NCBI GenBank assembly: GCA_029864565.1
Contig: JAOTTD010000017.1
Location: 1 to 35,369 of the forward strand
Direction of reading: 5' to 3'
Origin: Thermoplasmata archaeon
Lineage (GTDB): Archaea; Thermoplasmatota; Thermoplasmata; UBA10834
Length of the DNA: 35,369 nt
In this document: piece after piece, positions 831 through 34,627 of the stretch
How positions within the stretch are numbered: the stretch's first letter is position 1
How the letters are laid out: every line of letters begins with the position of its first letter
Notes under the pieces: model-generated
The model's database searches: none
What the model saw: only the letters and a program-made list of their open reading frames with translations
What the model was told of the DNA's origin: nothing
Translations under genes and position numbers: made by a program

Positions 831-3800
831 ATGGCCAATTCGAGGGCAATTGTGATAATGACAAGTGTATTGCTAGTCATCTCACTGTTTTCTGCAGCTC
901 AGAATGTTGCGGCGTGGGAGAGCATTGATGACGGTTCCATCTCCGAGAGAATTGAAGACTCAGATGGGGATGGGAAGATCAATTCGCTCATCATAGATGT
1001 TCCAATAGTAGGCATCACCTGGCTAGGATATTCGACCTTATACTTGAGAGACTATCTCGAGATTGCTGCGGAACTCTGGAATAGCGATATGACGGAGTAT
1101 GTTAGCCATACGTCCGTGGAGTACGACATAGAAGAGTGGACGATTCTGGAGTCTGCCACAATACCCGTGAGCTTCTCGGGAAGGGACATATCTGCATCGG
1201 GCGTCGAAGGCCCATACCTGGCCATGATAGTGCTCACCCACTTCGTAGTATGGCGAGACTTTCCTGTTATTCCTGTTCAAGCAGAACAGGTTGACTGGGC
1301 AGCCTATACGATAACCGGGGATTACTCATTGTATGATTTCGAAATACCTGAACCATACGAGATGTTGGATTCATCCTACGAGACAATCGATGACGACGGC
1401 GATGGGCTCTGGGATTGGATCAGGGCTCATATGACCATTGATGTCCTCGATACGGAGTTGGTCACTGTGCAGTTGGAGCTGGAACCGGAATTCGGCTCAG
1501 ATGCCTCCATCATATACGGCGAGGAGCACGTGCTGACGGTTGGTGACTCTCAAACGCTGTCAGTCGATATTGACGGTCGCTTGATCAATGGATTCAACCT
1601 GAACGAAAAGAAGTACGCCATACGTGCTTCGATATCGACGACCGATGGATTCGACGCACACGACTGGATCATGACCGACTTCTTCGATGCCACCGATTTC
1701 GAGGATTACCCTGTATCCCTCGAAGGCGCAGTTGGGTGTGAGATGCTCGACGTGAATGATGACGGATTGACTGATTTCTTCAGGATATCGTACAATATCA
1801 CGGTTGACACCACCTCGAAGTACAGGATTCTTACATCCTTGCAGGACCCGAGCGACTATCTCGTGGTATCACCTGAAACCTTTGATGGATACTTGATGGA
1901 GGAGTACGAGGAGACCATTGTTGAGATAATTGACGCCTATTCAATTTACGAAACCGGCTTAGATGGGCCTCTTGATGTCGATATCCTAGAAATCCCCCTC
2001 GCCCATTCGAAATGGCCTGGGTACACAGAGATAACTGGCATTACCCTAGGGAACGGGACCACCGAAGACTTCGACCATGACGAGCTGAATCACCCAGCGC
2101 TGTTATCCATCTCTGGCTTCGTGAAGGACCAGTACGGCGAGGCGATACCGAGCGCCGATATGATGGTCTCAAGCAGCAATGACACGTGGTACTGGTCCGA
2201 AGTATATGTTAGCTGGACGGATGTGAACGGAGAATACACAGCTCTCGGACTCGTCCCTGGACAAGTTACCATACAAGTCGTAGCTGAGGGTTACTTGCCC
2301 CAGGAGATGGAAATTGACAATGTCGAAGAGGACATCTCGGGTGTGAACTTCACTCTTGAGGAGGACGGGCCCAGAGACTCAACGATTTCAGGCACGACTC
2401 TGGATAGGGAATGGAATCCGTTGGCTGATGTCGCTGTAATCCTGTTCATGAAGGACACCGTTCAGAGGTCCGCTCTGCTATACGGAATGACAGTATCGAA
2501 TGCCCTGGGGGAGTACTCGTTCGAAGTCAAAGAAGGCGATTACTTCATTGAGGCAGCGATGATCGACTCCACAGATCCCATGACTCTGGACTACACAGTA
2601 CTCTTGGGCGCTGGGACGGTGACGGTTGCGGAATCCGAAGTGGCACATCTGAATGTCACACTCAACATGACCGCTGACATCGACTCTGACATATACTCCT
2701 GCGATGTCGATCACATCGACCTGTCGTTCGAAGATTGGGAGAAAGGCGCGATGACCATTTCCTGTGCCTTCCCCGAATTGTCAAGTTTCATGCAGTTCGA
2801 ACTCCTGGTTGCGGACTTAGCCATGGGCGATGATGATGGGCTTGTTGACGAGGACGAAATCGAGGGATGGGACTTGAATCTGCAGATGATGGCAATGATG
2901 GATCTCGGCATGCCCCTCACAGCCGCCCAGTCAGGACTGTACTTCCTCGAATCGTTCTGCGTGGATGGAATCGGATATTCCACGCCTTCCGCCGAGGAAC
3001 TCGAATGCACGGGTCCAGACCTAACGGGTTCGGTGTGGGACTTGAGAGAGGATCTGCAAATCACGCTCAGCTTCGATGACATGCAATCGTATTGGGACGT
3101 TCCTGAAGAGGACACTCACAGAATGTACATCGAAGTGGACTATGCCGAAAACGATGGGAGTCCTCCGACGACGATCGACATCGGACCGCCATCGGGGTTC
3201 GTGCTTTTGTCATCAAACGGCCCCGACAACGTCTCCGTAGAGGGCACGAGTCACGTTACCATCATTCCTGGCGAATCCCCGGACTCTGAGAACCTCACCA
3301 GCGTCCTCGTCATGCTCGAGCTCACGAGCGCGACGACCGAAGAAACTGGTTCCATCTGGGGCACTGCAACCCTCCAGGATGAGCTCGACCACTCGGGAGT
3401 ACTTGTCGACCTCCTGAACGCAAACCTCGGTGTTATCAGTTCCGTAACAACGTACTCAACGGGCGAGTATGTGTTCCCCAACCTGGAGCCCGGAGACTAT
3501 CATGTGAGGGCGAGCATGACAGGCTACATTGACTCGTATGGGAGCGTGACCGTCAGCGAAGGCGTCTCATCAGATCTCAATATCGTCCTCTTGCCTGTCG
3601 GAACGGCCGTCGACGATTCGGGCATACAGGGAAGGATCGTCACCGAATCCGGCGCCTCGATTTCGGACGCCACTGTCAACCTATACAATCCATCAGATTC
3701 TGAGACTTCGATGATGACCGCGATTTCAGAATCGGACGGCATGATGGAATTCGAGGAGCTCCAGAGCGGCGAGTACAGGCTCGAAGTGTCCGCGGACGGG

Positions 3801-4325
3801 TTCCACAACGAGACTCTGTACATAGTGCTCAACGCCGGAGAGACGAAGGACATCGGCGATATCGCCCTCATATCGAGCATACCAGTTGGATACATAACTG
3901 GCGCTGTCGAAGACGCCGAGGGCGACCCGGTGACGGAAGTGACTGTGGAGGCCAGGCTCGCAGGCTCGGACGCCGTGATGGCCGAGAATGAGACGAAGTC
4001 GGATGGCTCGTTCGTCATCAGCGGGCTAGAGGATGGCGAATACAATCTGACGTTTATCTTTGACGGAGACATTGTCGCGTACGCGGACGTTGTCGTCGAG
4101 GACTCCGTCGGCGATGCTGGTGTCATCGTAATCGACATCAGCCAAGGAGACGCCGAGTCAGAGGACGATAGAGATTCACCTTGGGTGTGGATTCTGTTGA
4201 TAGCCATCGCCCTCGCGGCCGTGGCGGCTTTTGTCGGGCTGAAGATGCGCAAGCCGAAAGCGCCTCAGCCCATGGAACTTGAGCGGCAAGACGCTCCGAC
4301 GGAGGAGGGACCTCCTCTCCCCTGA
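831..4325 (+). CDS. Large secreted, membrane-anchored protein with carboxypeptidase-regulatory-like repeats
   Basis: The 1164-residue product starts with a signal peptide (about residues 1-28, ending AAQNVAAWE) and ends with a single membrane helix (about 1119-1141, PWVWILLIAIALAAVAAF) plus a short Lys/Arg/Pro tail. Most of the chain should therefore be outside the cell. Acidic loops of the D-x-D-x-D-G type (DSDGDGKIN, DDDGDGLWD, DVNDDGLTD, GDDDGLVDEDE) suggest Ca2+ binding. About five beta-sandwich repeats of the CarboxypepD_reg/Cna-B-like type (ISGFVKDQYGEAIPSA, ISGTTLDREWNPLADV, GRIVTESGASISDATV, ITGAVEDAEGDPVTEV) begin near residue 420. The ribosome-binding site TGGAGGG at 817-823 supports the ATG at 831. 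No catalytic domain is recognised; an S-layer, adhesin or surface-scaffold role is inferred. A decayed copy of its 3' end lies just upstream. Confidence 0.85.
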   Translation: MANSRAIVIMTSVLLVISLFSAAQNVAAWESIDDGSISERIEDSDGDGKINSLIIDVPIVGITWLGYSTLYLRDYLEIAAELWNSDMTEYVSHTSVEYDIEEWTILESATIPVSFSGRDISASGVEGPYLAMIVLTHFVVWRDFPVIPVQAEQVDWAAYTITGDYSLYDFEIPEPYEMLDSSYETIDDDGDGLWDWIRAHMTIDVLDTELVTVQLELEPEFGSDASIIYGEEHVLTVGDSQTLSVDIDGRLINGFNLNEKKYAIRASISTTDGFDAHDWIMTDFFDATDFEDYPVSLEGAVGCEMLDVNDDGLTDFFRISYNITVDTTSKYRILTSLQDPSDYLVVSPETFDGYLMEEYEETIVEIIDAYSIYETGLDGPLDVDILEIPLAHSKWPGYTEITGITLGNGTTEDFDHDELNHPALLSISGFVKDQYGEAIPSADMMVSSSNDTWYWSEVYVSWTDVNGEYTALGLVPGQVTIQVVAEGYLPQEMEIDNVEEDISGVNFTLEEDGPRDSTISGTTLDREWNPLADVAVILFMKDTVQRSALLYGMTVSNALGEYSFEVKEGDYFIEAAMIDSTDPMTLDYTVLLGAGTVTVAESEVAHLNVTLNMTADIDSDIYSCDVDHIDLSFEDWEKGAMTISCAFPELSSFMQFELLVADLAMGDDDGLVDEDEIEGWDLNLQMMAMMDLGMPLTAAQSGLYFLESFCVDGIGYSTPSAEELECTGPDLTGSVWDLREDLQITLSFDDMQSYWDVPEEDTHRMYIEVDYAENDGSPPTTIDIGPPSGFVLLSSNGPDNVSVEGTSHVTIIPGESPDSENLTSVLVMLELTSATTEETGSIWGTATLQDELDHSGVLVDLLNANLGVISSVTTYSTGEYVFPNLEPGDYHVRASMTGYIDSYGSVTVSEGVSSDLNIVLLPVGTAVDDSGIQGRIVTESGASISDATVNLYNPSDSETSMMTAISESDGMMEFEELQSGEYRLEVSADGFHNETLYIVLNAGETKDIGDIALISSIPVGYITGAVEDAEGDPVTEVTVEARLAGSDAVMAENETKSDGSFVISGLEDGEYNLTFIFDGDIVAYADVVVEDSVGDAGVIVIDISQGDAESEDDRDSPWVWILLIAIALAAVAAFVGLKMRKPKAPQPMELERQDAPTEEGPPLP

Positions 4326-14950: not shown

Positions 14951-15757
14951 TCACAGAGAGCCGAGAGCGAAGAGCAGTGCGAGCAACGTCCCGAACGCTA
15001 TCGAGATGAAGTTGTTGCCGAGCTTGCCCACCTTGCCGCTCCTCTCCCACGTTGCGCCTATGACGCTGTCTATCTGACAACCCAAGAAGCCGGACAGCAT
15101 GGGTATGAGGAGCGTCCTCGGGCCCGCAAGAAGGTCGGTATCAAGCGCCGCGAAGAGAACATACGCGATTGCGGAGGTGTACGCCGCAGCGACGAAGGCA
15201 ACCAATTGCCCGGTCAGGGAGACCCCGCCGTCCGTGCCCCTCTTGATCCGTCTGAAAGTGGTTATCAGGTACACTCTCGGATCCACGATTCCGATCTCGC
15301 TGGCCGCGGTGTCCGCAGCGGCGACCGCGACCGCGGTTACGAACATGAAACTCGCGACATCCTTCGGGAAGACGTTTGCGGCGGGGTTGCCGTTCGCCAC
15401 CGCCTCCGACACGAAACTCGCGAACGCTATCAGCGTGGGGATAGCCCCGTTGGCGGCTATGTTCCTCCAGTTCCTCTCGCCTTTCCTCCCCTCCTGAAAG
15501 CCTTTCGCCCGCTTCCACTCCAGCCTATACCTTGTGGCCCCGAAGCTCGACAGCAAGAAGACCAGCAGCAGCAGGAGCCACAACACGTTGCCGCATATTC
15601 CGATGACCATACCGACTATGAAGGCTGATAGGGAGCCAGATAGGTCGAAGACGCGCTTGTAATACGATATTCCGGCCATCACCAGGCAGAAGCACGTGAC
15701 TCCCACCAGCGTGACGGTATCAGGGATAGGTAATGCCAACAACTCACCCTGCTTCAC
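14951..15757 (-). CDS. DUF92 family membrane protein
   Basis: The 268-residue polytopic protein has the family signatures KGERNWRNIAANG, AVAAADTAASEIG, RGTDGGVSLTGQLVA, GCQIDSVIGATWE and the C-terminal KLGNNFISIAFGT. About six to seven membrane helices are visible. In plants a DUF92 member (VTE6) is the CTP-dependent phytyl-phosphate kinase; in archaea the family is not characterised. A polyprenyl-phosphate substrate is a reasonable but untested guess here. The GTG start overlaps the stop of the giant FG-GAP/PKD protein gene by 4 nt (GTGA), so it depends on that gene for translation. Confidence 0.88.
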   Translation of the reverse strand: MKQGELLALPIPDTVTLVGVTCFCLVMAGISYYKRVFDLSGSLSAFIVGMVIGICGNVLWLLLLLVFLLSSFGATRYRLEWKRAKGFQEGRKGERNWRNIAANGAIPTLIAFASFVSEAVANGNPAANVFPKDVASFMFVTAVAVAAADTAASEIGIVDPRVYLITTFRRIKRGTDGGVSLTGQLVAFVAAAYTSAIAYVLFAALDTDLLAGPRTLLIPMLSGFLGCQIDSVIGATWERSGKVGKLGNNFISIAFGTLLALLFALGSL

Positions 15758-18700
15758 TTTAGGGTACCCGGGAATGCGGGCGCCCTCGAATAAAGCTTCT
15801 TCATTATGTCATTTACGCCTCTGACGCTGTCGAGGTCACCGTCCCAGTCGGTCAGAGGCTCTCCGAAGCTCTTCTCAATCTCATCGACTACCATCTTCAT
15901 CCGGCCAACGGCTTTCTTCGAGGCCATTCCGTGGAGCACGGCGGCCAGGAACACCTTCTCTCCCTTCTCGATGAGAACTGACTTCTCGCCGAAGTCGAGC
16001 TTCCTGAGGGTGAACGATGTCTCTCCCTTGAACGAGTCCTTGACGAAATCCTGCACCGCAACGAACATGCTCCCAAGGACCTGGTCGTCCATGCCAGGCT
16101 TGAGCCGTCTTGTGCTGTGGGCCATCAGGCGACCGTCGTGATAAATCACGAAAGTCTCATCAACCGCGGTCTTCGTCTCGCGGACGAAGTAAGCCGCGGT
16201 CCCGATGGCCGTCAGCAGTGCCAATGCCAGCAGGTATGGCCACGCGGCGTCTATGAAATGCATCTTGACCGTGGCGGTGTAAATCTCCGTCGTCGCTGTG
16301 TTGCCCGCAAGGTCCTCGATCGTGAACCAGAACTCAATAGTCCCTGTCCTCATTGGCACGTCGGCCACGGCGTAGAACTTGTCCTCTCCGTACGACAACA
16401 TCAACAGATACACCGGCGAGCTCCGTCCCGGAAACAACACGATGAGCGTCACGCCCTGCGAGTCCACGTTCACGTCGTCAACCTCGATCGTCACGTTGAT
16501 CCTGTCACCAGCATACGTCTTGTTCGAAAGCCATAGGAGGATGACCCGGGGGTTCTCGCTATCGATGACTATCTCGATGTCGTTCTTGACGGCGATGTTG
16601 CCGTCCCTGTCTTCTGCGCGCACAACCACCAAGTACGCACCATCAAGCCAATCGGTCGTGTCTATCTCGTACAGTATGGTGAAGTTCCGCTCCTCGTCCC
16701 CATTGACGGAGTACATCACGGAGACGAGTGGCAAGGAGTCGTCGCTTATCGAGAACCTCAGCGGTGTACCGGGGGTGATGACCATGTTGCCGGTCGGAGA
16801 CTTGATTTCGATCTCGGGCTCGAAGAGGCGCAGTTGTCTGCTCATGCAGAGTACATTGCCGTCATCGTCCGTGAGCGTCAAGTTCGCCTGATAGTCACGA
16901 ATCGGGACATATGAGTGCTCGACCGGTTCTGAGGGAGCGCCCACAAGGACTTCGCGCACTCCGTCCCCGAACTCCCACACGACGTTCGATATATCTGGGA
17001 ATGCCTCCGCGAAATGCCCAGCGTCGAAAACGAGCGTCGAAGTCTCGTTAGGGTCTTTCCGAGTCACGATGACCTCGTCGAAAGTCCCGGTCAAATCTCT
17101 GTCGACGACCTCCACCGTTGTGAACGCTATCGCCGAAGATCCTTCGCAATCGATTACTCGTACCTTGGCGGTGTAGTTGCCAGCCCAGTTGTATATGTGG
17201 TACATCGTGCCGTCGTCTGAGTAATCATCCGCCACGAATTCCCCGCCATACGCGATGAAATCCCATTCGTAACCAGCGACGGCGTCGTAGCTCTCCACGG
17301 ACGTCATCAGTTCAACTTCGTCGAACTCGAGGTAAATTCCGGACTCAGGCAATGCCGACAGCGTGACGCTCGGCGGAAGCTCTGCGACATTGAAGTCCAG
17401 CAGGAACTGGTCCGTGTCGCCGTCGGCTTCGGCCATCTCCAGCAGCATATGATACGCTCCGTCGGCGAGAACGAATTCCGTTTCCACCATTGCGTCCGCG
17501 GTTAAGTTGAACGATTCGCTGTAGCTATCAGGTCCGGTAAGAGTCCAAGACCAATCGATGACTCCGTCGAACGAGTCGACGGCTATGAATGTGAATGGCA
17601 CGCCTTCGCCAGGGACGTCGTCGGACAGCACCAGTGATGCATCGGGCCCGATATCGAGGATGGTCAGGTTGACTACGCATAGCGCGAAGTCATCGTCATC
17701 ATCGGTAACGAGAACGGCAACGGAGTGCTCCTCGGAGCTACCTTCAGCGCCGAACACCATGGTGGTGCTGTTCGTAGTCGTAACGAGGTCAGCAACCCAT
17801 TCGCCGCCCTGGTACGAGAAGTTCCATTCGTAGCTGACGATGGGGTCCCAAGGCCCGTCGTTCCACGGGTCGACCTCGACTTCGAAGGAGACGCTCACGC
17901 CTTCATAAGCGGTCGAGGGCGCGATCAGCGTCGCATCTGGACTCATCGACAGGACCTGGAATTCACAGGTGTAGTCCGAGATGGAACCATCGTCGTCAGT
18001 GGCCTCGAGTGTGATTGAGTGTGGTCCGTCGTCGAACACGGCCGTTATGGAGTTCTCCATGCCACTGCTAATGAGGACATCATCGATAGTCCAGTTGAGC
18101 AGAACGATGTCGTCGTACGATGTAGTCGTGTCGTTGAATGTTATCAGCTCGCCCTCGCGAGGGATGGAAGGGGACAGCGTTAGGCTCACATGGGGTGAGC
18201 TGTCTACGACGGTCACCCCGGTGTAAGCGACATCGCTCAGTCCGAGTGGGTCTCTTACCTCCATGACCACATCGAACATGTCGATTTCCATGTATGTGTG
18301 AATGGGGTTCGGCTCCCGGATCCAGTCGGTGTAGTTGCCGTCGCCGAAATCCCATCTGTACTCCATAAACGGTATCTCGGATGCGCCCGTGGTGGCAGAA
18401 CCGTTGAACGTCAAGGGGTCGCCCTGTTGAGTGACATACGGGCCACCAGAATGCGCGACCGGAGCGGAATTCACCTGTTCCCACACGGAGACCGAGTGAG
18501 ATGCTGAGTCGCACACGACGAGGTCGCCTCTATGATCCTGACTCCCGTCTGCAACCATCGCCAAAGTGGGAGAAGCTCCAGCTACGAATGTCATAGACGG
18601 TGTCTTCGGTAGCAATCCATTCTCCTGCCCGTACAAGAAGACGAGGTCGGCGGAGTTGAACATCGCGATCACATCTTTGAATCCGTCATCAGTGGCATCC

Positions 18701-20799
18701 AACAAGGCCACGAAGGAAGGTGCCTCAGGGAAGGCTAGCGTGTCAAATGGCAACGAGGTCGTCCCGAATGACATCTGGTCGAACAAATATGCCATAGGAT
18801 CATCGCTCCTCAGGCCCACGATGTCGTCCCGGCCGTCACCGGTGATGTCTCCGCAGAGTGCAGTCTCGAACTCGCCCACGAAACTCGCTGTCAGATTGAA
18901 GGACTCGGGCATCGACAGCGGGGAGCCATCTTGCTGGAGGATGATGCTGATCGTCCGGGTAGGTCGTGGGTAAGCGATGTCATTCAATCCGTCGGAATCG
19001 AAGTCCCCAATGGCTATCGAAGTCAGAGACCCTCCAGGCAACACTTCTATCTCATATGAGTCGTCGTACATGGATCCATGGCCGGGGTTGACAAACACAT
19101 CTATGGTGCCCTTGTCTGTGGCAACTACGACATCCGGAAGTCCGTCGTCGCTCACGTCTCCGACGGCGATGTCGGTGATGTTGCCGGAGCACTGACACGT
19201 CCAAGTGTCGAACAGTCCAGAGTCCGGACCCGTTCCATCTCCGATGTGAATCGTGAACTCGTCGCCACCAGACTCAGTGGTGAGGACGTCGCAGAAGCCA
19301 TCGACATCCAAGTCACCCACGATGAGCTTTAGTGGTTCATAGGCCAATCCGATGGTCATGATGCTGCCCGAATACGATAGGTGGTAACTAAACGCGTTGC
19401 TGTCAGGATACAGTAGAACGAGGTCCTCGTGATCGTCGCCGTTTATATCCCCAGAAGCCATTGCCGTGGCCTCGTAATTGGCGCTTGTCCATACGGTCAT
19501 GTTGCTGTTCGAGAAGTTATCAGGGCCTGCGAGATACACTGCTATGCTCGACCCGCTCCAATCATCCCGTGCCGATGCAATCGCGATATCGATATTGCTG
19601 TCTGAGTCAAGATAACCGATAAGCGATTTTCTGGGATACGCCCCAGTCGGGAATATGGCATCCGCGCTAGTTCCCCATATGGGCGAAATCGCCCGCTGGT
19701 ACATGCATAGGGCGACGTTCGCGTCTGCCGATAAGATCAGCAAATCGTCCAACCCATCACCATTCAAGTCGTCGACAGTCAAGTCGCTTGGTGAGTGCTG
19801 GAGGGAGCGATTGTAATCTTCCGTGAGGGGGAGCGCGCCGAGGCTCTGGAAAAAGAATCGGACAGAGGATGATTCTTCGGTGCACACCGCGAGATCGTCC
19901 GAGCCATCGCCGTTGAGTCTACCAGCGGCTATCGTTGTCGGGCTACCGTCGATTTCGAGAATCGTGCTAGGCGACATTCCCAACGAGAACGGTTGATGGA
20001 AGACAGTCACTACAGAATCATGGTAATTTCCGATCGCCAGGTCCGTCAGCGAATCCCCGTTTAGATTGCCAGCGACAATCGCATTAGACCCATTTCCTGT
20101 CACAAATGCGCTGTAGGTCGAAAATGACGGTCCTTCTCTCACCTCAACAACACCAGGGGTGGACATAGGGTTAGGGCCCGAGCATGCTATCGCGATGTCC
20201 GGATGAGCGTCGCCCACGAAATTGCCTGATACAATAGAAGTGGGGCTCTCGTAAACTGTAAGATTCCGCAACTCTTCGTGAGTCTCGTCGCTCGTTAGAT
20301 TCAGGACGACAAGTCGGTCAGAGTCAGACTCTGATCTGGCCTTCTCAAGCACAGCAATCTGGTCTTGCCCAATTCCTTTCACGTCTAGTGTTGTCAGCGC
20401 AATTGGAATTCTACCTAGCGAAATATTGTACGAAGGGTAAGTGAGGAAATCACCCTCATCTTGGCCGTAGAACACAGAAATGAATCCTGTCGACCCGCCG
20501 ACGGCAACAACGAAATCCAATCGTCCGTCCCCATTCACATCTGCGAGCGCTGCATCGGTAGATCCGCCAGGAAGCATCAGTGCCCTGGAGATCAGCGGAT
20601 ACTCCTTCAGAGAAGCAGAGGTGTCTATGGGATCGTCAAACTCGACCGACCTAAGATCGGCATGTCCTCCAATCGGCACGGCCACGCCAGAGTTGGGAGT
20701 CGATCGGATGCCCTCGTCCGATGCCTGCGAAATACCAAGAGGCATCAGGAGAGAAGCAACTATGACAACGACCAGCGTCGCCGTCGAGAACCTGTGCAA
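15754..20799 (-). CDS. Giant FG-GAP/VCBS and PKD surface protein with cytosolic C-terminal domain
   Basis: The 1681-residue protein has a signal peptide (about 1-26, TLVVVIVASLLMPLGISQA). Some 13 VCBS/FG-GAP repeats follow to about residue 770. Each carries a Ca2+-loop such as DVNGDGRLD, NLNGDSLTD, DLNGDGLDD, DVSDDGLPD or DITGDGRDD, and together they suggest one or two beta-propellers. From about 775 come several PKD/Ig-like domains (YRWDFGDGNYTDW, YEWNFSYQGG, VVWEFGDGVRE). Then come Ig-like modules, one membrane helix (about 1519-1538, WPYLLALALLTAIGTAAYFV) and about 140 cytosolic residues. The cytosolic part (FVIYHDGRLMAHSTRRLKPG, QDFVKDSF, LTDWDGD) resembles a domain I recall from other archaeal membrane proteins and looks Roadblock/longin-like. 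The start is TTG at 20799, because an upstream in-frame stop at 20818-20820 leaves no other choice. A role in adhesion or sensing is inferred. Confidence 0.87.
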   Translation of the reverse strand: MHRFSTATLVVVIVASLLMPLGISQASDEGIRSTPNSGVAVPIGGHADLRSVEFDDPIDTSASLKEYPLISRALMLPGGSTDAALADVNGDGRLDFVVAVGGSTGFISVFYGQDEGDFLTYPSYNISLGRIPIALTTLDVKGIGQDQIAVLEKARSESDSDRLVVLNLTSDETHEELRNLTVYESPTSIVSGNFVGDAHPDIAIACSGPNPMSTPGVVEVREGPSFSTYSAFVTGNGSNAIVAGNLNGDSLTDLAIGNYHDSVVTVFHQPFSLGMSPSTILEIDGSPTTIAAGRLNGDGSDDLAVCTEESSSVRFFFQSLGALPLTEDYNRSLQHSPSDLTVDDLNGDGLDDLLILSADANVALCMYQRAISPIWGTSADAIFPTGAYPRKSLIGYLDSDSNIDIAIASARDDWSGSSIAVYLAGPDNFSNSNMTVWTSANYEATAMASGDINGDDHEDLVLLYPDSNAFSYHLSYSGSIMTIGLAYEPLKLIVGDLDVDGFCDVLTTESGGDEFTIHIGDGTGPDSGLFDTWTCQCSGNITDIAVGDVSDDGLPDVVVATDKGTIDVFVNPGHGSMYDDSYEIEVLPGGSLTSIAIGDFDSDGLNDIAYPRPTRTISIILQQDGSPLSMPESFNLTASFVGEFETALCGDITGDGRDDIVGLRSDDPMAYLFDQMSFGTTSLPFDTLAFPEAPSFVALLDATDDGFKDVIAMFNSADLVFLYGQENGLLPKTPSMTFVAGASPTLAMVADGSQDHRGDLVVCDSASHSVSVWEQVNSAPVAHSGGPYVTQQGDPLTFNGSATTGASEIPFMEYRWDFGDGNYTDWIREPNPIHTYMEIDMFDVVMEVRDPLGLSDVAYTGVTVVDSSPHVSLTLSPSIPREGELITFNDTTTSYDDIVLLNWTIDDVLISSGMENSITAVFDDGPHSITLEATDDDGSISDYTCEFQVLSMSPDATLIAPSTAYEGVSVSFEVEVDPWNDGPWDPIVSYEWNFSYQGGEWVADLVTTTNSTTMVFGAEGSSEEHSVAVLVTDDDDDFALCVVNLTILDIGPDASLVLSDDVPGEGVPFTFIAVDSFDGVIDWSWTLTGPDSYSESFNLTADAMVETEFVLADGAYHMLLEMAEADGDTDQFLLDFNVAELPPSVTLSALPESGIYLEFDEVELMTSVESYDAVAGYEWDFIAYGGEFVADDYSDDGTMYHIYNWAGNYTAKVRVIDCEGSSAIAFTTVEVVDRDLTGTFDEVIVTRKDPNETSTLVFDAGHFAEAFPDISNVVWEFGDGVREVLVGAPSEPVEHSYVPIRDYQANLTLTDDDGNVLCMSRQLRLFEPEIEIKSPTGNMVITPGTPLRFSISDDSLPLVSVMYSVNGDEERNFTILYEIDTTDWLDGAYLVVVRAEDRDGNIAVKNDIEIVIDSENPRVILLWLSNKTYAGDRINVTIEVDDVNVDSQGVTLIVLFPGRSSPVYLLMLSYGEDKFYAVADVPMRTGTIEFWFTIEDLAGNTATTEIYTATVKMHFIDAAWPYLLALALLTAIGTAAYFVRETKTAVDETFVIYHDGRLMAHSTRRLKPGMDDQVLGSMFVAVQDFVKDSFKGETSFTLRKLDFGEKSVLIEKGEKVFLAAVLHGMASKKAVGRMKMVVDEIEKSFGEPLTDWDGDLDSVRGVNDIMKKLYSRAPAFPGTLK

Positions 20800-20925: not shown

Positions 20926-22116
20926 ATGAGCCTATCGTTGAAAATCGGGAAAGCATTAGGAATACCCATCTACCTCCACTTCACCTTCCTGATTATATTG
21001 CCTTTGTTCATCTTTTTCTTCTCGACGGAGAGCGCCGAGATATTCGGTGTGACTCTGGGTTTCGGAGGCGCTGACATCAGCGATGGTGCGAAGATTGTCT
21101 TTGGAACCGTCGCCGCGGTTATGTTCTTCGCTGCAGTGCTCGCGCACGAACTCGCGCACTCTTACGTCGCCATCCGGTATGGTGTCAAGATCAAGCACAT
21201 AACGCTCATGTTGTTCGGCGGTGTCGCGTCGATGGAGGAGATTCCGAGGAAGCCATTGGAGGAGCTAAAGATGGCTTTCGCGGGTCCGATGGCTAGCCTG
21301 GTGATAGGTCTGGTGTCATTCGGGGGAATGATGCTCGCCGACTTGCTTGTCATCGGCTCACTGGGCGACAGCATCGTCATACTGCTCGGTCTGACGGGAT
21401 TCTACAACATCCTGCTGGCGGGATTCAACCTACTGCCCGCCTTCCCAATGGATGGAGGCAGGGTACTCAGATCGTTCTTGGCAACGAGGATGTCCTATGT
21501 TGATGCCACCAAGATGGCGACCTCGGTCGCAAAGGTGCTCGCAATCGGCATGGCGGCGGTCGGCTTCTTCTCGAATTTCTTCCTGATACTGATTGCGATA
21601 TTCATCTACTTCGCCGCCAGAGAGGAGGAACGCGCCACCGTCATCGGAGAGAGCCTCGGGGGCTTGGCGGTGAGACAACTTATGTCCGACGCGATACAAG
21701 TGGTCCATCCGTCCATGACTGTCCAGCAACTGCTCGACATGATGATGGCCACGAACAGGACGGGATTTCCGGTAGTCGATTACGGCCTAGTAGGCATCGT
21801 CACCCTCTCCGACACGCGCAGAGTCCCGAAGGATCGTGCCCCCTCGACTCTGATCAGGGACATCATGACGAGGGAGGTGGTCACTGTCCGCCCTGACACC
21901 CCCGCGAGCGATGCGTTCAGGATGATGAGCCAGAAGGACATTGGTCGGCTTATCGTCGTTGACGACCAAAGGAACCTTGTTGGCATCGTCACCAAGAAGG
22001 ATTTCGTCCGAATGGTGGATATAATGGAGGCGCGGAAGAGAGGCACTGCCTGGGGTCAGCCAGGCTGGGATCAGCAGTTTGCGAGGCCGCCTCCTCCGCC
22101 GCCAGCTTATCCTTAG
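20926..22116 (+). CDS. Site-2-type intramembrane zinc metalloprotease (M50) with two CBS domains
   Basis: Family M50 proteases cleave membrane-embedded substrates, often anti-sigma factors or other regulators. This 396-residue protein has the zinc motif HELAH (74-78) in a membrane helix and the third ligand in NLLPAFPMDGGR (Asp176). It has about six helices in total. Two CBS domains follow (about 247-300 and 308-368, LIRDIMTREVVTVRPDTPAS and VGIVTKKDF), which usually bind adenosyl ligands and tune activity. The tail is proline-rich (RPPPPPPAYP). The ATG at 20926 lies about 27 nt after a TATA box with no Shine-Dalgarno, so the mRNA is probably leaderless. The stop overlaps that of the convergent permease gene. 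Confidence 0.93.
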   Translation: MSLSLKIGKALGIPIYLHFTFLIILPLFIFFFSTESAEIFGVTLGFGGADISDGAKIVFGTVAAVMFFAAVLAHELAHSYVAIRYGVKIKHITLMLFGGVASMEEIPRKPLEELKMAFAGPMASLVIGLVSFGGMMLADLLVIGSLGDSIVILLGLTGFYNILLAGFNLLPAFPMDGGRVLRSFLATRMSYVDATKMATSVAKVLAIGMAAVGFFSNFFLILIAIFIYFAAREEERATVIGESLGGLAVRQLMSDAIQVVHPSMTVQQLLDMMMATNRTGFPVVDYGLVGIVTLSDTRRVPKDRAPSTLIRDIMTREVVTVRPDTPASDAFRMMSQKDIGRLIVVDDQRNLVGIVTKKDFVRMVDIMEARKRGTAWGQPGWDQQFARPPPPPPAYP

Positions 22117-32575: not shown

Positions 32576-33028
32576 ATGAGCCATCATGGGTTCAGTCTAG
32601 GAGCTTTGAGCAACATGTCAGGAGGATTCGTTTCCAAGGAATCTGGAAACTCGGGTATCTTGGCCAGGATCATAGTCGTCGATGACGAGGATTTCATAAG
32701 GGACCTCTACAGGGACATGTTCGAGTCGAGGGGGCACACCGTGTACTCAGCCAGGAGTGGCGAAGAGGCCATACGGTATCTCAAGACAATGTCCGTCAGG
32801 CCGGATGCGATAATAATGGATCACAGGATGCCAGGCAAGGACGGGATCGAGACGACGAAGGAAATACTCAAGATCGACCCGAACATACCAATCATATTCT
32901 CCAGCGCAGACGAGGACGCACGCAACGACGCGATAAAGGCTGGAGCCACATCATTCTGGACGAAGCCGTTCCCCATACGCATGCTCATAGACGCAACGGT
33001 GGACGTCGTCAAAGCCCGCAAGAACTGA
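32576..33028 (+). CDS. Stand-alone response regulator receiver protein
   Basis: The 150-residue protein is a single CheY-like receiver domain after a roughly 30-residue polar N-terminus. Features are the acidic pair Asp36/Asp37 (IIVVDDEDF), phospho-acceptor Asp82 (IIMDHRMPGKDG), the switch Ser in IIFSSAD and Lys130 (FWTKPF). No output domain is present and no histidine kinase lies in the window, so it acts by protein contact. The ATG at 32576 has GAGAGGT 7 nt upstream; a TTG at 32561 and an ATG at 32615 are alternatives. It ends 5 nt before the convergent pelota gene. Confidence 0.87.
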   Translation: MSHHGFSLGALSNMSGGFVSKESGNSGILARIIVVDDEDFIRDLYRDMFESRGHTVYSARSGEEAIRYLKTMSVRPDAIIMDHRMPGKDGIETTKEILKIDPNIPIIFSSADEDARNDAIKAGATSFWTKPFPIRMLIDATVDVVKARKN

Positions 33029-33033
33029 GAAGG

Positions 33034-34071
33034 CTATGCGATCGGGTACCTGAGGATGGCCGCGATCCCTCCTAGCGATTCCAGTCGCCGGCCCGCCTCG
33101 TGCAGCGAGCTTATGATTACGAACTCACCGCGCGAGTTCTCGACGAGTCTGAGCATGGTATCCGCCTCGTCGGTCCTCACCTTCTCATCCAGGACCAGCA
33201 GCGTCTTCACGGCACCGGCCTCAGCCGCGGTCCTCACAGACTGCATGCCGTAGGCAAAGAGACCGTCAGAGCCGATCTCCGAGAAGAGTTGTTCCACCAA
33301 CCGTGTCTCCCTCGCCACGCGGGAGTTCTCCACAGCCTTTCCTCCGAGGCCCCTCTTCATCGCCTCGTGGACCCCTGCCATGCCTGCCTGACCTGTTGAC
33401 AGTAGGATTATCTCTGATTGGAGATCGGGATGCTTCTCCCTGATTCGGTGAGCCAATGATTCCTTGGTGAAGCCCGGGCCGAGTATCACCAACGGTTCCC
33501 CATTGACGATGGGAACAACCTTGTCGACGACCTCGTCAAGGTAGGCTTCCTCATTGGACTTTGATTCGTACATCTTCCCCTCCGGGTTCCGAGTTATCGT
33601 AGCAGACTCCTTGAACCCGTACTCCCTGGCCATCGCAATGACTGCTTCCGTATCTTCTATGGCGACGAACACGATCGACGGTTTCTCGCTCGCCTCGACC
33701 GCCCTCTTGATCCTCTCCAGATACGCCTGCTTCCATTCCGTCTTGACAATCGTGATATCGTCACCTACGCCTATCATGAGCGTGTGGTGTTGTCCCACAT
33801 CTTGAGGGCCAGACTCGATCTCGCCAAGGAGGCGCAGCCGGTCCTCGGACTCGTGGAACTCCACCTTCTTCACCCTTATGCCCAGCCTCATGCGGATCTT
33901 CTCAGTACGCTCCGGCCTGAGCTTGTCCCCCTTGTCCTCCTTTCGCCTGTAGGTAGAGGCGTATACTAAGTCAGACTCATCCAGTAGATTGCTCATGTGC
34001 CAAAGGTCGTCTATTGTCTCTGGCCGCAGCTTGATCTCATTGGTCCTCGTGTCCTGATGTAGAACTTTCAT
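33034..34071 (-). CDS. pelA: mRNA surveillance protein Pelota (Dom34)
   Basis: Pelota, with aABCE1 and aEF1-alpha, rescues ribosomes stalled on mRNA. The 345-residue protein begins KVLHQDTRTNEIKLRPETID and DLWHMSNLLDESDLVYAST, the eRF1/Pelota N-terminal domain. It continues with the central domain (SIVFVAIEDTEAVIAMAREY) and C-terminal domain (VKTLLVLDEKVRTDE, GEFVIISSLHEAGRRLESLG). The GGQ motif that defines release factor aRF1 is absent, which fixes the identity. The frame is open to 34608, but similarity starts at the ATG at 34071. The upstream extension would overlap the opposite-strand Roadblock gene and is rejected. Confidence 0.96.
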   Translation of the reverse strand: MKVLHQDTRTNEIKLRPETIDDLWHMSNLLDESDLVYASTYRRKEDKGDKLRPERTEKIRMRLGIRVKKVEFHESEDRLRLLGEIESGPQDVGQHHTLMIGVGDDITIVKTEWKQAYLERIKRAVEASEKPSIVFVAIEDTEAVIAMAREYGFKESATITRNPEGKMYESKSNEEAYLDEVVDKVVPIVNGEPLVILGPGFTKESLAHRIREKHPDLQSEIILLSTGQAGMAGVHEAMKRGLGGKAVENSRVARETRLVEQLFSEIGSDGLFAYGMQSVRTAAEAGAVKTLLVLDEKVRTDEADTMLRLVENSRGEFVIISSLHEAGRRLESLGGIAAILRYPIA

Positions 34072-34211
34072 CTCCGGGCTCGTTCGTGCATGACGGTGAC
34101 CCGATATCAAGGCATCGAACCGACACATCGGAGTCTTGGCGCGCCCCGAATCTGAAACCATATGCACTTTTCGCTGGTAGGTGCGAGAATCGCCGAGCGA
34201 TATCTCCCAAG

Positions 34212-34220
34212 GTTTATATT
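34212..34220 (+). promoter_or_regulatory. Promoter of the Roadblock/LC7 gene
   Basis: GGTTTATATTC is a good TATA box. A start about 25 nt downstream gives a leader of roughly 25 nt containing GGGGAGGG (34249-34256). Confidence 0.55.
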
Positions 34221-34264
34221 CTCCGCAGTTCATTTGCAGGCAGTCATCGGGGAGGGACTCGTGC

Positions 34265-34627
34265 ATGGCACAGTATTTAGCTATTGAAGAGACGTTGGAT
34301 GAGCTCCATAAGACGCTTCCATCCGTGTACGAGGCTACGGTCGTGTCGAGGAGCGGCATGCACATAGCTGGCGATTCGCCAAAGGGCGTGCACCTCGAGA
34401 CGTTCGTGGCCATGTCCGCGATACTTCTTGGAGCAGCGGAGACTGCGACGAGCGAGCTCAAGGACAAGCTCCAGTATGTTGCTGTCGAGCTCAGCAGAAG
34501 CAGGATGGTTCTCACAAGCGCCGGCAACAGAGCCCTGCTCGTGCTGACCGCCTCAGATGAGATGTCGACGGAAGAATTGGCCGAGAACGCGGCCAAGTTC
34601 GCGGACATAGTAGCAGGTCAGATCTGA
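34265..34627 (+). CDS. Roadblock/LC7 domain protein
   Basis: The 120-residue protein is a single Roadblock/LC7 domain: LDELHKTLPSVYEATVVSRS, then a strand-helix with FVAMSAILLGAAETATSELK, VAVELSRSRMVLTSAG and NRALLVLTASDE. Such domains dimerise and regulate small GTPases (MglB/Rag-type) or other partners. No Ras-like GTPase gene is in the window. The ATG at 34265 is chosen for the GGGGAGGG site 9 nt upstream; the open frame extends to 34181. It converges with the PHP gene, with 2 nt between the stop codons. Confidence 0.87.
   Translation: MAQYLAIEETLDELHKTLPSVYEATVVSRSGMHIAGDSPKGVHLETFVAMSAILLGAAETATSELKDKLQYVAVELSRSRMVLTSAGNRALLVLTASDEMSTEELAENAAKFADIVAGQI

Follow-up and report, generated by a model that had tools for sequence, protein, structure and literature searches.

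A giant propeller surface protein of a Thermoplasmata archaeon with a longin-like tail and a probable link to Ras/Rab-like small GTPases

Longin domains are small folds that dock Rab-type molecular switches in complex cells. Here we describe a putative transmembrane surface protein of a Thermoplasmata archaeon, encoded at 15754–20799 (−) of contig JAOTTD010000017.1 (assembly GCA_029864565.1), whose cytosolic tail models as a longin domain; the window referred to throughout is the whole stretch of DNA analysed, 35,369 nucleotides in length. Tails of the same family occur across the class, where they travel with Ras-family GTPases, and it is probable that the protein is a transmembrane receptor whose tail docks or regulates a Ras/Rab-like small GTPase.

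Among described longin proteins, the SNAREs Sec22b, Ykt6 and VAMP7 are the best structural matches of the tail. Sec22b and VAMP7 are membrane-anchored. The order of parts is inverted in the window protein, in which an ectodomain is followed by the membrane helix and a C-terminal longin, leaving no room for a SNARE motif behind the longin. Integrin alpha chains also carry an FG-GAP propeller ectodomain on a single-pass protein; unlike them, the window protein has PKD legs and a folded longin tail where the integrin tail is short. The tri-longin Rab guanine nucleotide exchange factors (GEFs) share the longin fold with the tail (Fuzzy, Z 12.9), some relatives of the tail give weak Fuz_longin_1 matches, and the Rab-like GTPases proposed as partners carry the F..Y of switch 1. 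However, these GEFs are soluble heterodimers with three longins per chain, whereas the window protein has one longin match on a transmembrane protein, and two or three are found only in some distant relatives. Their mechanism requires Tyr-Lys/Arg in switch 1 of the substrate (PMC12383261, section 7), and this catalytic lysine/arginine is absent from the GTPases here, of which 1 in 70 has a basic residue at the position.

Rab-like GTPases have been reported in archaea for a decade, and the accessible text of a 2016 study (PMC4915359) gives single Rab-like proteins in a Thermoplasmatales archaeon and an Aciduliprofundum, with the word longin not found in that text. Asgard archaea, like the family described here, have both longins and Rab-like GTPases, and a Lokiarchaeal longin aligns with the tail at Z 11.6. 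According to the accessible part of PMC4917890, Lokiarchaeum has 41 longin-like domains, some of them fused to GTPases, and longins alone do not prove traffic. PMC10933270, as far as its available text extends, describes Asgard longins, regards regulators of the Asgard Rab-like GTPases as hard to match and reports that the GTPases of MK-D1 as a rule lie outside operons containing longin or roadblock genes, in contrast to the Thermoplasmata family, where GTPase and longin genes are often neighbours; its main text was searched for 'transmembrane' and 'receptor', and neither word was found. Streptomyces conservons couple a histidine kinase, a roadblock protein and a GTPase (PMC4316618, whose available part covers MglA/MglB and not longin). 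Conservons and MglA-MglB resemble the present system in combining a small GTPase with a roadblock-fold regulator, but here a longin would replace the roadblock and is fused straight to a surface protein, kinase-free. No description of longin-tailed receptors appeared among the listed results of searches of the open literature, subscription journals lying mostly outside the search.

Domain layout of the window protein and fold of its tail

The receptor frame is free of internal stops and translates to 1681 residues, from a TTG at 20799 that is the putative, unproven start to a stop at 15754 (open frame 1687 residues; all features of the protein are on the minus strand). Hydropathy identifies two hydrophobic stretches, residues 1–19 and 1521–1539. 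The first lies in a signal-peptide-like N-terminus (residues 1–26, 20722–20799) with a putative cleavage site, and the second is modelled by AlphaFold2 (AF2) as a single transmembrane helix (residues ∼1515–1542, 16174–16257) that leads into an ordered alpha/beta domain. Outside the membrane, an FG-GAP/VCBS propeller region (residues ∼69–765, 18505–20595) is matched by Pfam FG-GAP_3 (E 1.2e-33, seven stretches) and FG-GAP (5.5e-21, five stretches). Calcium-type loops, counted by eye on the translation, number 14, from residue ∼87 to ∼751 at a spacing of ∼50 residues; a script pattern found most of the 14, plus some spurious ones. Fourteen loops would fit two seven-bladed propellers. These are followed by PKD modules (residues ∼777–1330, 16810–18471, outer limits approximate; PKD_4 E 7.7e-24 in four stretches and PKD 4.5e-17 in three) and by one Ig-like Big_13 module (residues 1342–1413, 16561–16776, E 2.4e-7). 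The ectodomain is acidic (D+E 246 versus K+R 52) and contains all 23 N-x-S/T sequons found, with none in the tail. The cytosolic part comprises ∼140 residues, of which ∼125 form the domain (residues ∼1545–1669, 15793–16167) and ∼12 follow it. Of 86 long longin frames gathered, 52 are distinct, exceed 800 residues and place a helix immediately ahead of the longin, and in 41 of these 52 lysine and arginine are richer after the helix than before it, as expected of a cytosolic tail. This layout is essentially that of the first-pass annotation, whose PKD modules, single membrane helix and cytosolic length are borne out by Pfam, hydropathy and the AF2 model, and whose 'about 13' FG-GAP/VCBS loops are present but one too few.

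The tail had been described as Roadblock- or longin-like, and it models more exactly as a longin domain, although the evidence is the fold and the confidence of the model is middling. The AF2 model, computed from 38 aligned tails (predicted local distance difference test score, pLDDT, 76; predicted template modelling score, pTM, 0.64), has the order strand-strand-helix-strand-strand-strand-helix-helix that characterizes longins, with strands at 33–41, 46–51, 86–91, 94–100 and 104–111 and helices at 60–77, 116–137, 144–147 and 150–157, the last two of them short. Both segments singled out earlier, FVIYHDGRLMAHSTRRLKPG and QDFVKDSF, are present and lie in strands 1–2 and helix 1 of the model. 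A Roadblock/LC7 assignment is disfavoured by the model, in which strand 1 is preceded by the membrane helix only and further helices follow helix 2. Foldseek returned 89 PDB matches at E ≤ 0.001; the first row is a chain of a GATOR1-Gtr-Lam structure, and Sec22b, coatomer zeta, AP-2/adaptor subunits and MglB (E 2e-5 to 5e-5) are among the 50 matches listed. In VIA-align, longins occupy the top rows, with Sec22b best (Z 15.5, root-mean-square deviation (rmsd) 2.5, 126 aligned), followed by Ykt6 (14.2, 2.5, 126) and, a little lower and together with other structures, by VAMP7 (13.2, 2.6, 119) and Fuzzy (12.9, 2.7, 123); the Lokiarchaeal longin aligns over 128 residues with an rmsd of 3.3. Adaptor sigma subunits, which rank lower, and Arf1 complexes are also among the matched structures.

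By sequence, the window's tail has no Pfam match up to E 1 except one of 13 residues (E 0.2), and no NCBIfam match. Weak matches to Fuz_longin_1 were obtained for 14 of the 38 aligned tails (best E 0.0056) and for 2 of 63 more diverse tails (best 0.0031), and to Robl_LC7 (PF03259) for 3 of 38 (best 0.059) and 8 of 63 (best 8.8e-5); the diverse set, alignment A4, holds the window tail and 62 of 65 non-redundant tails, three being omitted. Searching the PDB by sequence gave no meaningful match, the best being designed proteins (E 0.037 for alignment A2 and 0.058 for A4). On the AF2 model and the Pfam and NCBIfam scans, a disordered, enzymatic or purely structural tail is rejected.

Among seven full-length orthologues, identity to the window protein is 62–79% in the tail, 24–61% in the propellers and 29–66% in the PKD part. 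Judged by sequence, no part of the protein is better conserved than the tail, the inside being conserved and the outside freer, and a tail kept at such identity is more than chance. This bears on the proposal that the protein is a passive adhesin with an irrelevant tail. Ectodomains of this kind are indeed common on archaeal surface proteins, but a tail that is folded in the model, is conserved above all else and is reused across many proteins makes that proposal very improbable. The earlier preference for a receptor over a passive adhesin is favoured indirectly by the conserved tail, by the different ectodomains that share it and by the family's association with Ras-family GTPases, although the receptor role itself is inferred.

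The longin-tail family and its linkage to Ras-family GTPases

The first-pass annotation had proposed a search for the same tail on other archaeal membrane proteins, and such proteins were found in abundance. The window's own genome encodes three longin tails, namely those of the window protein, of a ∼1400-residue receptor and of a 194-residue protein in which two hydrophobic helices were identified by eye. Carriers make up 21/21 genomes of the order, 81/120 of the class, with up to 26 matches each, and 18/145 of those drawn from the phylum. A scan of named genomes confirmed 510 relatives, the best 80 of which bear the titles Thermoplasmata/Thermoplasmatota, Methanomassiliicoccales, Methanomassiliicoccus, DHVE2, Aciduliprofundum or unplaced Euryarchaeota/archaea; none was found in the viral contigs scanned. 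Methanomassiliicoccus is a genus with a cultured member, M. luminyensis. The ectodomains vary widely, being FG-GAP/PKD, Ig- and cadherin-like, carbohydrate-binding-like, lectin-like or of no recognised type. The earlier view that the receptor has no kinase or known output stands in its first half, no kinase domain being among the Pfam matches, whereas a small GTPase is now a candidate output.

The linkage of longin genes to GTPase genes is most regular within the order. A Ras-family GTPase gene of ∼270 codons adjoins the small longin gene in 16/16 loci, and a different GTPase, mostly of ∼185 residues, lies directly upstream of the ∼1400-residue longin receptor in all 14 loci with sequence there (the fifteenth ends at a contig edge; two frames share the GTPase of L174, and L049 has an incomplete longin). 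These two GTPases match Pfam Ras (PF00071) with E 5.9e-35 and 4.2e-37, and their motifs are conserved in alignment A3. In the window's own genome, two of the five Ras genes adjoin the other two longin genes; no longin was found around the remaining three, in line with the whole-genome search. In another family, the sole Ras-family match lies directly upstream of the sole longin gene in 3/3 loci fetched, with the two on separate contigs in a fourth genome, and giant longin receptors flanked by three to six GTPase genes are found in L184, L186, L187 and L216. Some example loci were picked for a nearby GTPase and serve as examples; the statistics rest on the order-wide loci, on circular shifts and on the co-occurrence across 120 genomes.

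Circular shifts in four single-contig genomes (lengths entered 100 bases too long for two) support this proximity. A Ras gene lies no more than 1 kb away from 6 of 37 longin domains, where 0.62 would be expected and 1 of 5000 shifts reached that count; at 2 kb the count is again 6 (0.99 expected; 8 of 5000 shifts), and at 5 kb it rises to 10 (2.05 expected; 1 of 5000 shifts). The signal at 1 kb is uneven between genomes, with 2/21 in the largest, 3/10, 1/4 and 0/2 (G013).

Co-occurrence provides a second line of evidence. When the same 120 genomes of the class were searched for both domains, a strong Ras-family match (E ≤ 1e-25) was present in 80/81 longin carriers versus 2/39 non-carriers (Fisher P 2e-27, overstated because the genomes are related), and the lone carrier without a Ras match is a genome 57% complete. 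Longin and Ras copy numbers covary (Spearman 0.85, n = 81; 0.78 over 21 family means); like the Fisher value, these coefficients ignore relatedness, and in big genomes the numbers are capped, with 30 longin and 27 Ras candidates scored, a match being a domain and not always a gene. Exactly one longin and one Ras match were found in 11 genomes of families f9 and f20. Five genomes with Ras but without longin were searched again with a profile built from the 63 diverse tails, and no longin was found in them.

Several family members depart from the receptor layout. Three proteins of ∼940–980 residues (L190:8418–11231, L190:11233–14043 and L203:8702–11650) have no predicted membrane helix and a longin match between residues 70 and 276; in the one scanned, L190:8418–11231, AAA_16 and TPR were matched, the longin match overlapping the end of the AAA_16 match, and a GTPase gene adjoins each of the two clusters. 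Two tandem longins with four predicted membrane helices, in ∼550–610 residues, are found at L204:4743–6467, L205:5292–7022, L206:4334–6100, L207:4959–6605 and L210:4492–6312; these resemble a built-in longin dimer, and a convergent GTPase gene is present at two of the five (L206, L207). Large proteins with no predicted membrane helix contain two or three spaced longins (L191:2291–8806, L198:3923–9874, L199:5135–11053 and L202:2913–6995), with CARDB-like segments in L191 and L198, the two scanned. Arrays of three to six Ras-family genes occupy L184:3529–9292, L186:1283–4046, L187:2099–4792 and L216:3377–6223, where two types of C-terminal extension (D/V-DFC and ARYC) are intermingled on the GTPases, which may be heterodimer partners. 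No natural longin-GTPase fusion was seen by eye in the listed neighbourhoods of the fetched loci. An 818-residue frame of L101 was rejected as a fusion; it runs out of frame over the longin gene into the GTPase. In L194 and L195 the simple gene picker called larger frames in place of the longin and Ras genes, and in L225 and L226 it passed over the GTPase in the same way.

Proposed mechanism and competing readings

Our results are compatible with a model in which the propellers and PKD modules, judged by domain type, would bind a ligand or surface outside the cell and the membrane helix would relay this to the cytosolic longin. From the family's gene linkage and co-occurrence, the longin would serve as a membrane-bound platform that docks or regulates a Ras/Rab-like GTPase. 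The window receptor itself would use a GTPase in trans, encoded elsewhere in the genome, and ligand binding would change the receptor's output. None of the 79 GTPases collected from the loci has a cysteine within its last five residues, that is, a prenylatable end, so the longin may supply the membrane anchor and carry the switch to the membrane. The G3 motif glutamine is kept in 55/79. By analogy with the longins of TRAPP and Mon1-Ccz1, a GEF-like promotion of exchange is weakly favoured over the action of a GTPase-activating protein.

A long C-terminal extension is present on 36 of 64 GTPases, and its aligned core models as four helices (pLDDT 93). Alignment A5 contains 25 of the 36 extensions and that of L179; in its 26 sequences, exemplified by L034:7600–7851 (+) and 25 relatives, Cys16, Met26 and Pro43 are invariant. 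The model gave no Foldseek match at E ≤ 0.001 (best 2.6) and no VIA-align row at Z ≥ 8 (top 6.6, rmsd 3.7, 78 aligned), and Pfam gave no convincing match to the extension (best 0.0026, 1 of 26 sequences).

Alternatively, signalling may run from the inside out, with the longin as an effector and a GTP-loaded switch altering adhesion or clustering of the propeller ectodomain, as Rap1/talin act on integrins; the protein would then be a regulated adhesin and not a sensor. Effector binding to GTP-loaded switches is established for some longins and adaptor subunits (Arf1 with AP-1 and COPI), the Arf1 complexes are among the structures matched by the tail model, propellers of the FG-GAP type typify the adhesive alpha chains of integrins, and all the linkage evidence fits equally well. 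The presence of the longin on very different ectodomains, and on a protein with no membrane helix, suits a general GTPase platform instead. Nothing in the evidence separates an effector from a docking or regulating tail; we regard the inside-out alternative as unlikely, at roughly one chance in a handful.

A number of observations count against a GTPase-regulating receptor. Gene linkage and co-occurrence do not amount to binding, and the genomes, being related, are not independent samples. By sequence, neither Fuz_longin_1 nor Robl_LC7 matches the window's own tail. Among 70 GTPases that fit the switch 1 pattern, the tyrosine is followed by isoleucine in 49, leucine in 10, valine in 4, threonine in 4 and arginine, phenylalanine and alanine in 1 each, so that the basic residue needed in tri-longin GEF substrates occurs once; nine others fall off the pattern, and the eight printed are all Tyr-hydrophobic. 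Since the tyrosine is kept but the next residue is mostly hydrophobic, the exact tri-longin chemistry is unsupported. Some Ras-family match is present in 13/39 longin-negative genomes, 11 of them weak. Linkage is also incomplete: of 11 genes for the third type of longin receptor in the order, 1 has a GTPase gene as its neighbour, G048 of f9 carries its longin and its Ras gene on separate contigs, neither longin gene of G013 is near a GTPase, and 16 of 21 longin domains in the largest genome are more than 5 kb from any Ras gene. The contig of the window receptor carries none of the five Ras genes of its genome, no GTPase was found near window-type receptors in 11 loci of the order, some of which end early, and the steady neighbour of the receptor gene is a DUF92 gene.

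The last observation favours a reading in which the longin tail is a trafficking or assembly tag, directing the giant protein to a membrane site or surface complex or holding it there, much like the longins of SNAREs and adaptors, with no signal. It agrees with the nearest folds, the longin SNAREs Sec22b and Ykt6, adaptor sigma subunits lying further down. Set against this are the family's GTPase linkage and copy-number covariation, and the ∼12 residues behind the domain are too few for a SNARE motif, and we consider such a tag improbable.

Roadblock proteins, the one encoded at 34181–34627 included, are another possible GTPase regulator and may, as MglB-like proteins, be the true one, the longin tails being partners of Roadblock or bystanders. 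They were found in 14/16 genomes tested, in G034 and G044 three Roadblock genes have a Ras gene within ∼250 bases, and in G072 both Ras and Roadblock are present and longin was not found; these points, too, weigh against the longin. Conversely, G083 has one longin and one Ras gene with no Roadblock match at E 1e-3, G028 has Roadblock with neither longin nor Ras found, and longin-GTPase gene pairs are frequent and conserved. Roadblock proteins as the true regulators would be compatible with a longin-tailed receptor, and we give them a low likelihood, similar to that of a tag. Some of the readings can hold together, and the likelihoods attached to them do not sum to one. A receptor with a GTPase-docking or -regulating longin remains the probable one.

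The window locus and implications for the family

Downstream of the receptor gene and overlapping it by 4 bases is a gene for a DUF92 integral membrane protein (14951–15757 (−), Pfam E 1.9e-54). DUF92 is next in line after the window-type receptor gene in all 16 related loci (L054–L068 and L201), including records titled Methanomassiliicoccus, and the FG-GAP and PKD ectodomain with DUF92 behind it was recovered by domain scan in two of these (L066, L068). The same receptor-DUF92 order is present in G083 (f20), whose single Ras match is on another contig. Beyond DUF92 are genes matching amino-acid kinase, FMN-dependent dehydrogenase and polyprenyl synthetase, which we take to be an isoprenoid-lipid cluster; a lipid-kinase role for DUF92, and a link to the receptor, may both be considered as candidate ideas. 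Upstream and divergent is a gene for an M50 peptidase with CBS domains (20926–22116 (+)), a relative of which occupies the same position in L065 and in six of the order's loci; the sequence of several others ends early there.

The partners suggested for the tail, at 32576 and 34265, do fall within a receiver protein and a Roadblock/LC7 protein (E 4.6e-10), respectively, but neither adjoins the receptor gene. The Roadblock/LC7 gene (34181–34627 (+)) is a possible regulator of the same GTPases. It is divergent from an eRF1-like gene whose frame (33034–34608 (−)) overruns it; the eRF1 match begins only at residue 180, so the true eRF1-like start is probably inside this frame. Elsewhere in the window, a large protein of 1164 residues (831–4325 (+)) contains several CarboxypepD_reg and SdrD_B-like modules. 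In sum, the first-pass annotation was right on the layout and nearly right on the fold, and the surprise, a family of longin-tailed surface proteins that have Ras/Rab-like GTPases as likely partners, is found outside the window.

More broadly, it is conceivable, though we hold it only tentatively, that a whole class of Thermoplasmatota-type transmembrane receptors signals through a cytosolic longin to Rab-like GTPases, in its simplest form with one receptor and one GTPase per genome. This would place longin-GTPase signalling outside the Asgard archaea and may make these proteins relatives of the ancestral longin-based Rab regulators of eukaryotes, the longin then being part of a surface receptor. 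The family's linkage to GTPase genes suggests that receptor-switch pairs let these archaea sense their surroundings or hold on to them. For many archaeal Rab-like GTPases, in non-Asgard archaea, a candidate partner is now indicated by gene order and co-occurrence. If this is correct, the role of archaeal Rab-like switches would become testable with single genes, and the longin-Rab pairing would have served surface signalling, whether outside-in or inside-out, before or beside membrane traffic.

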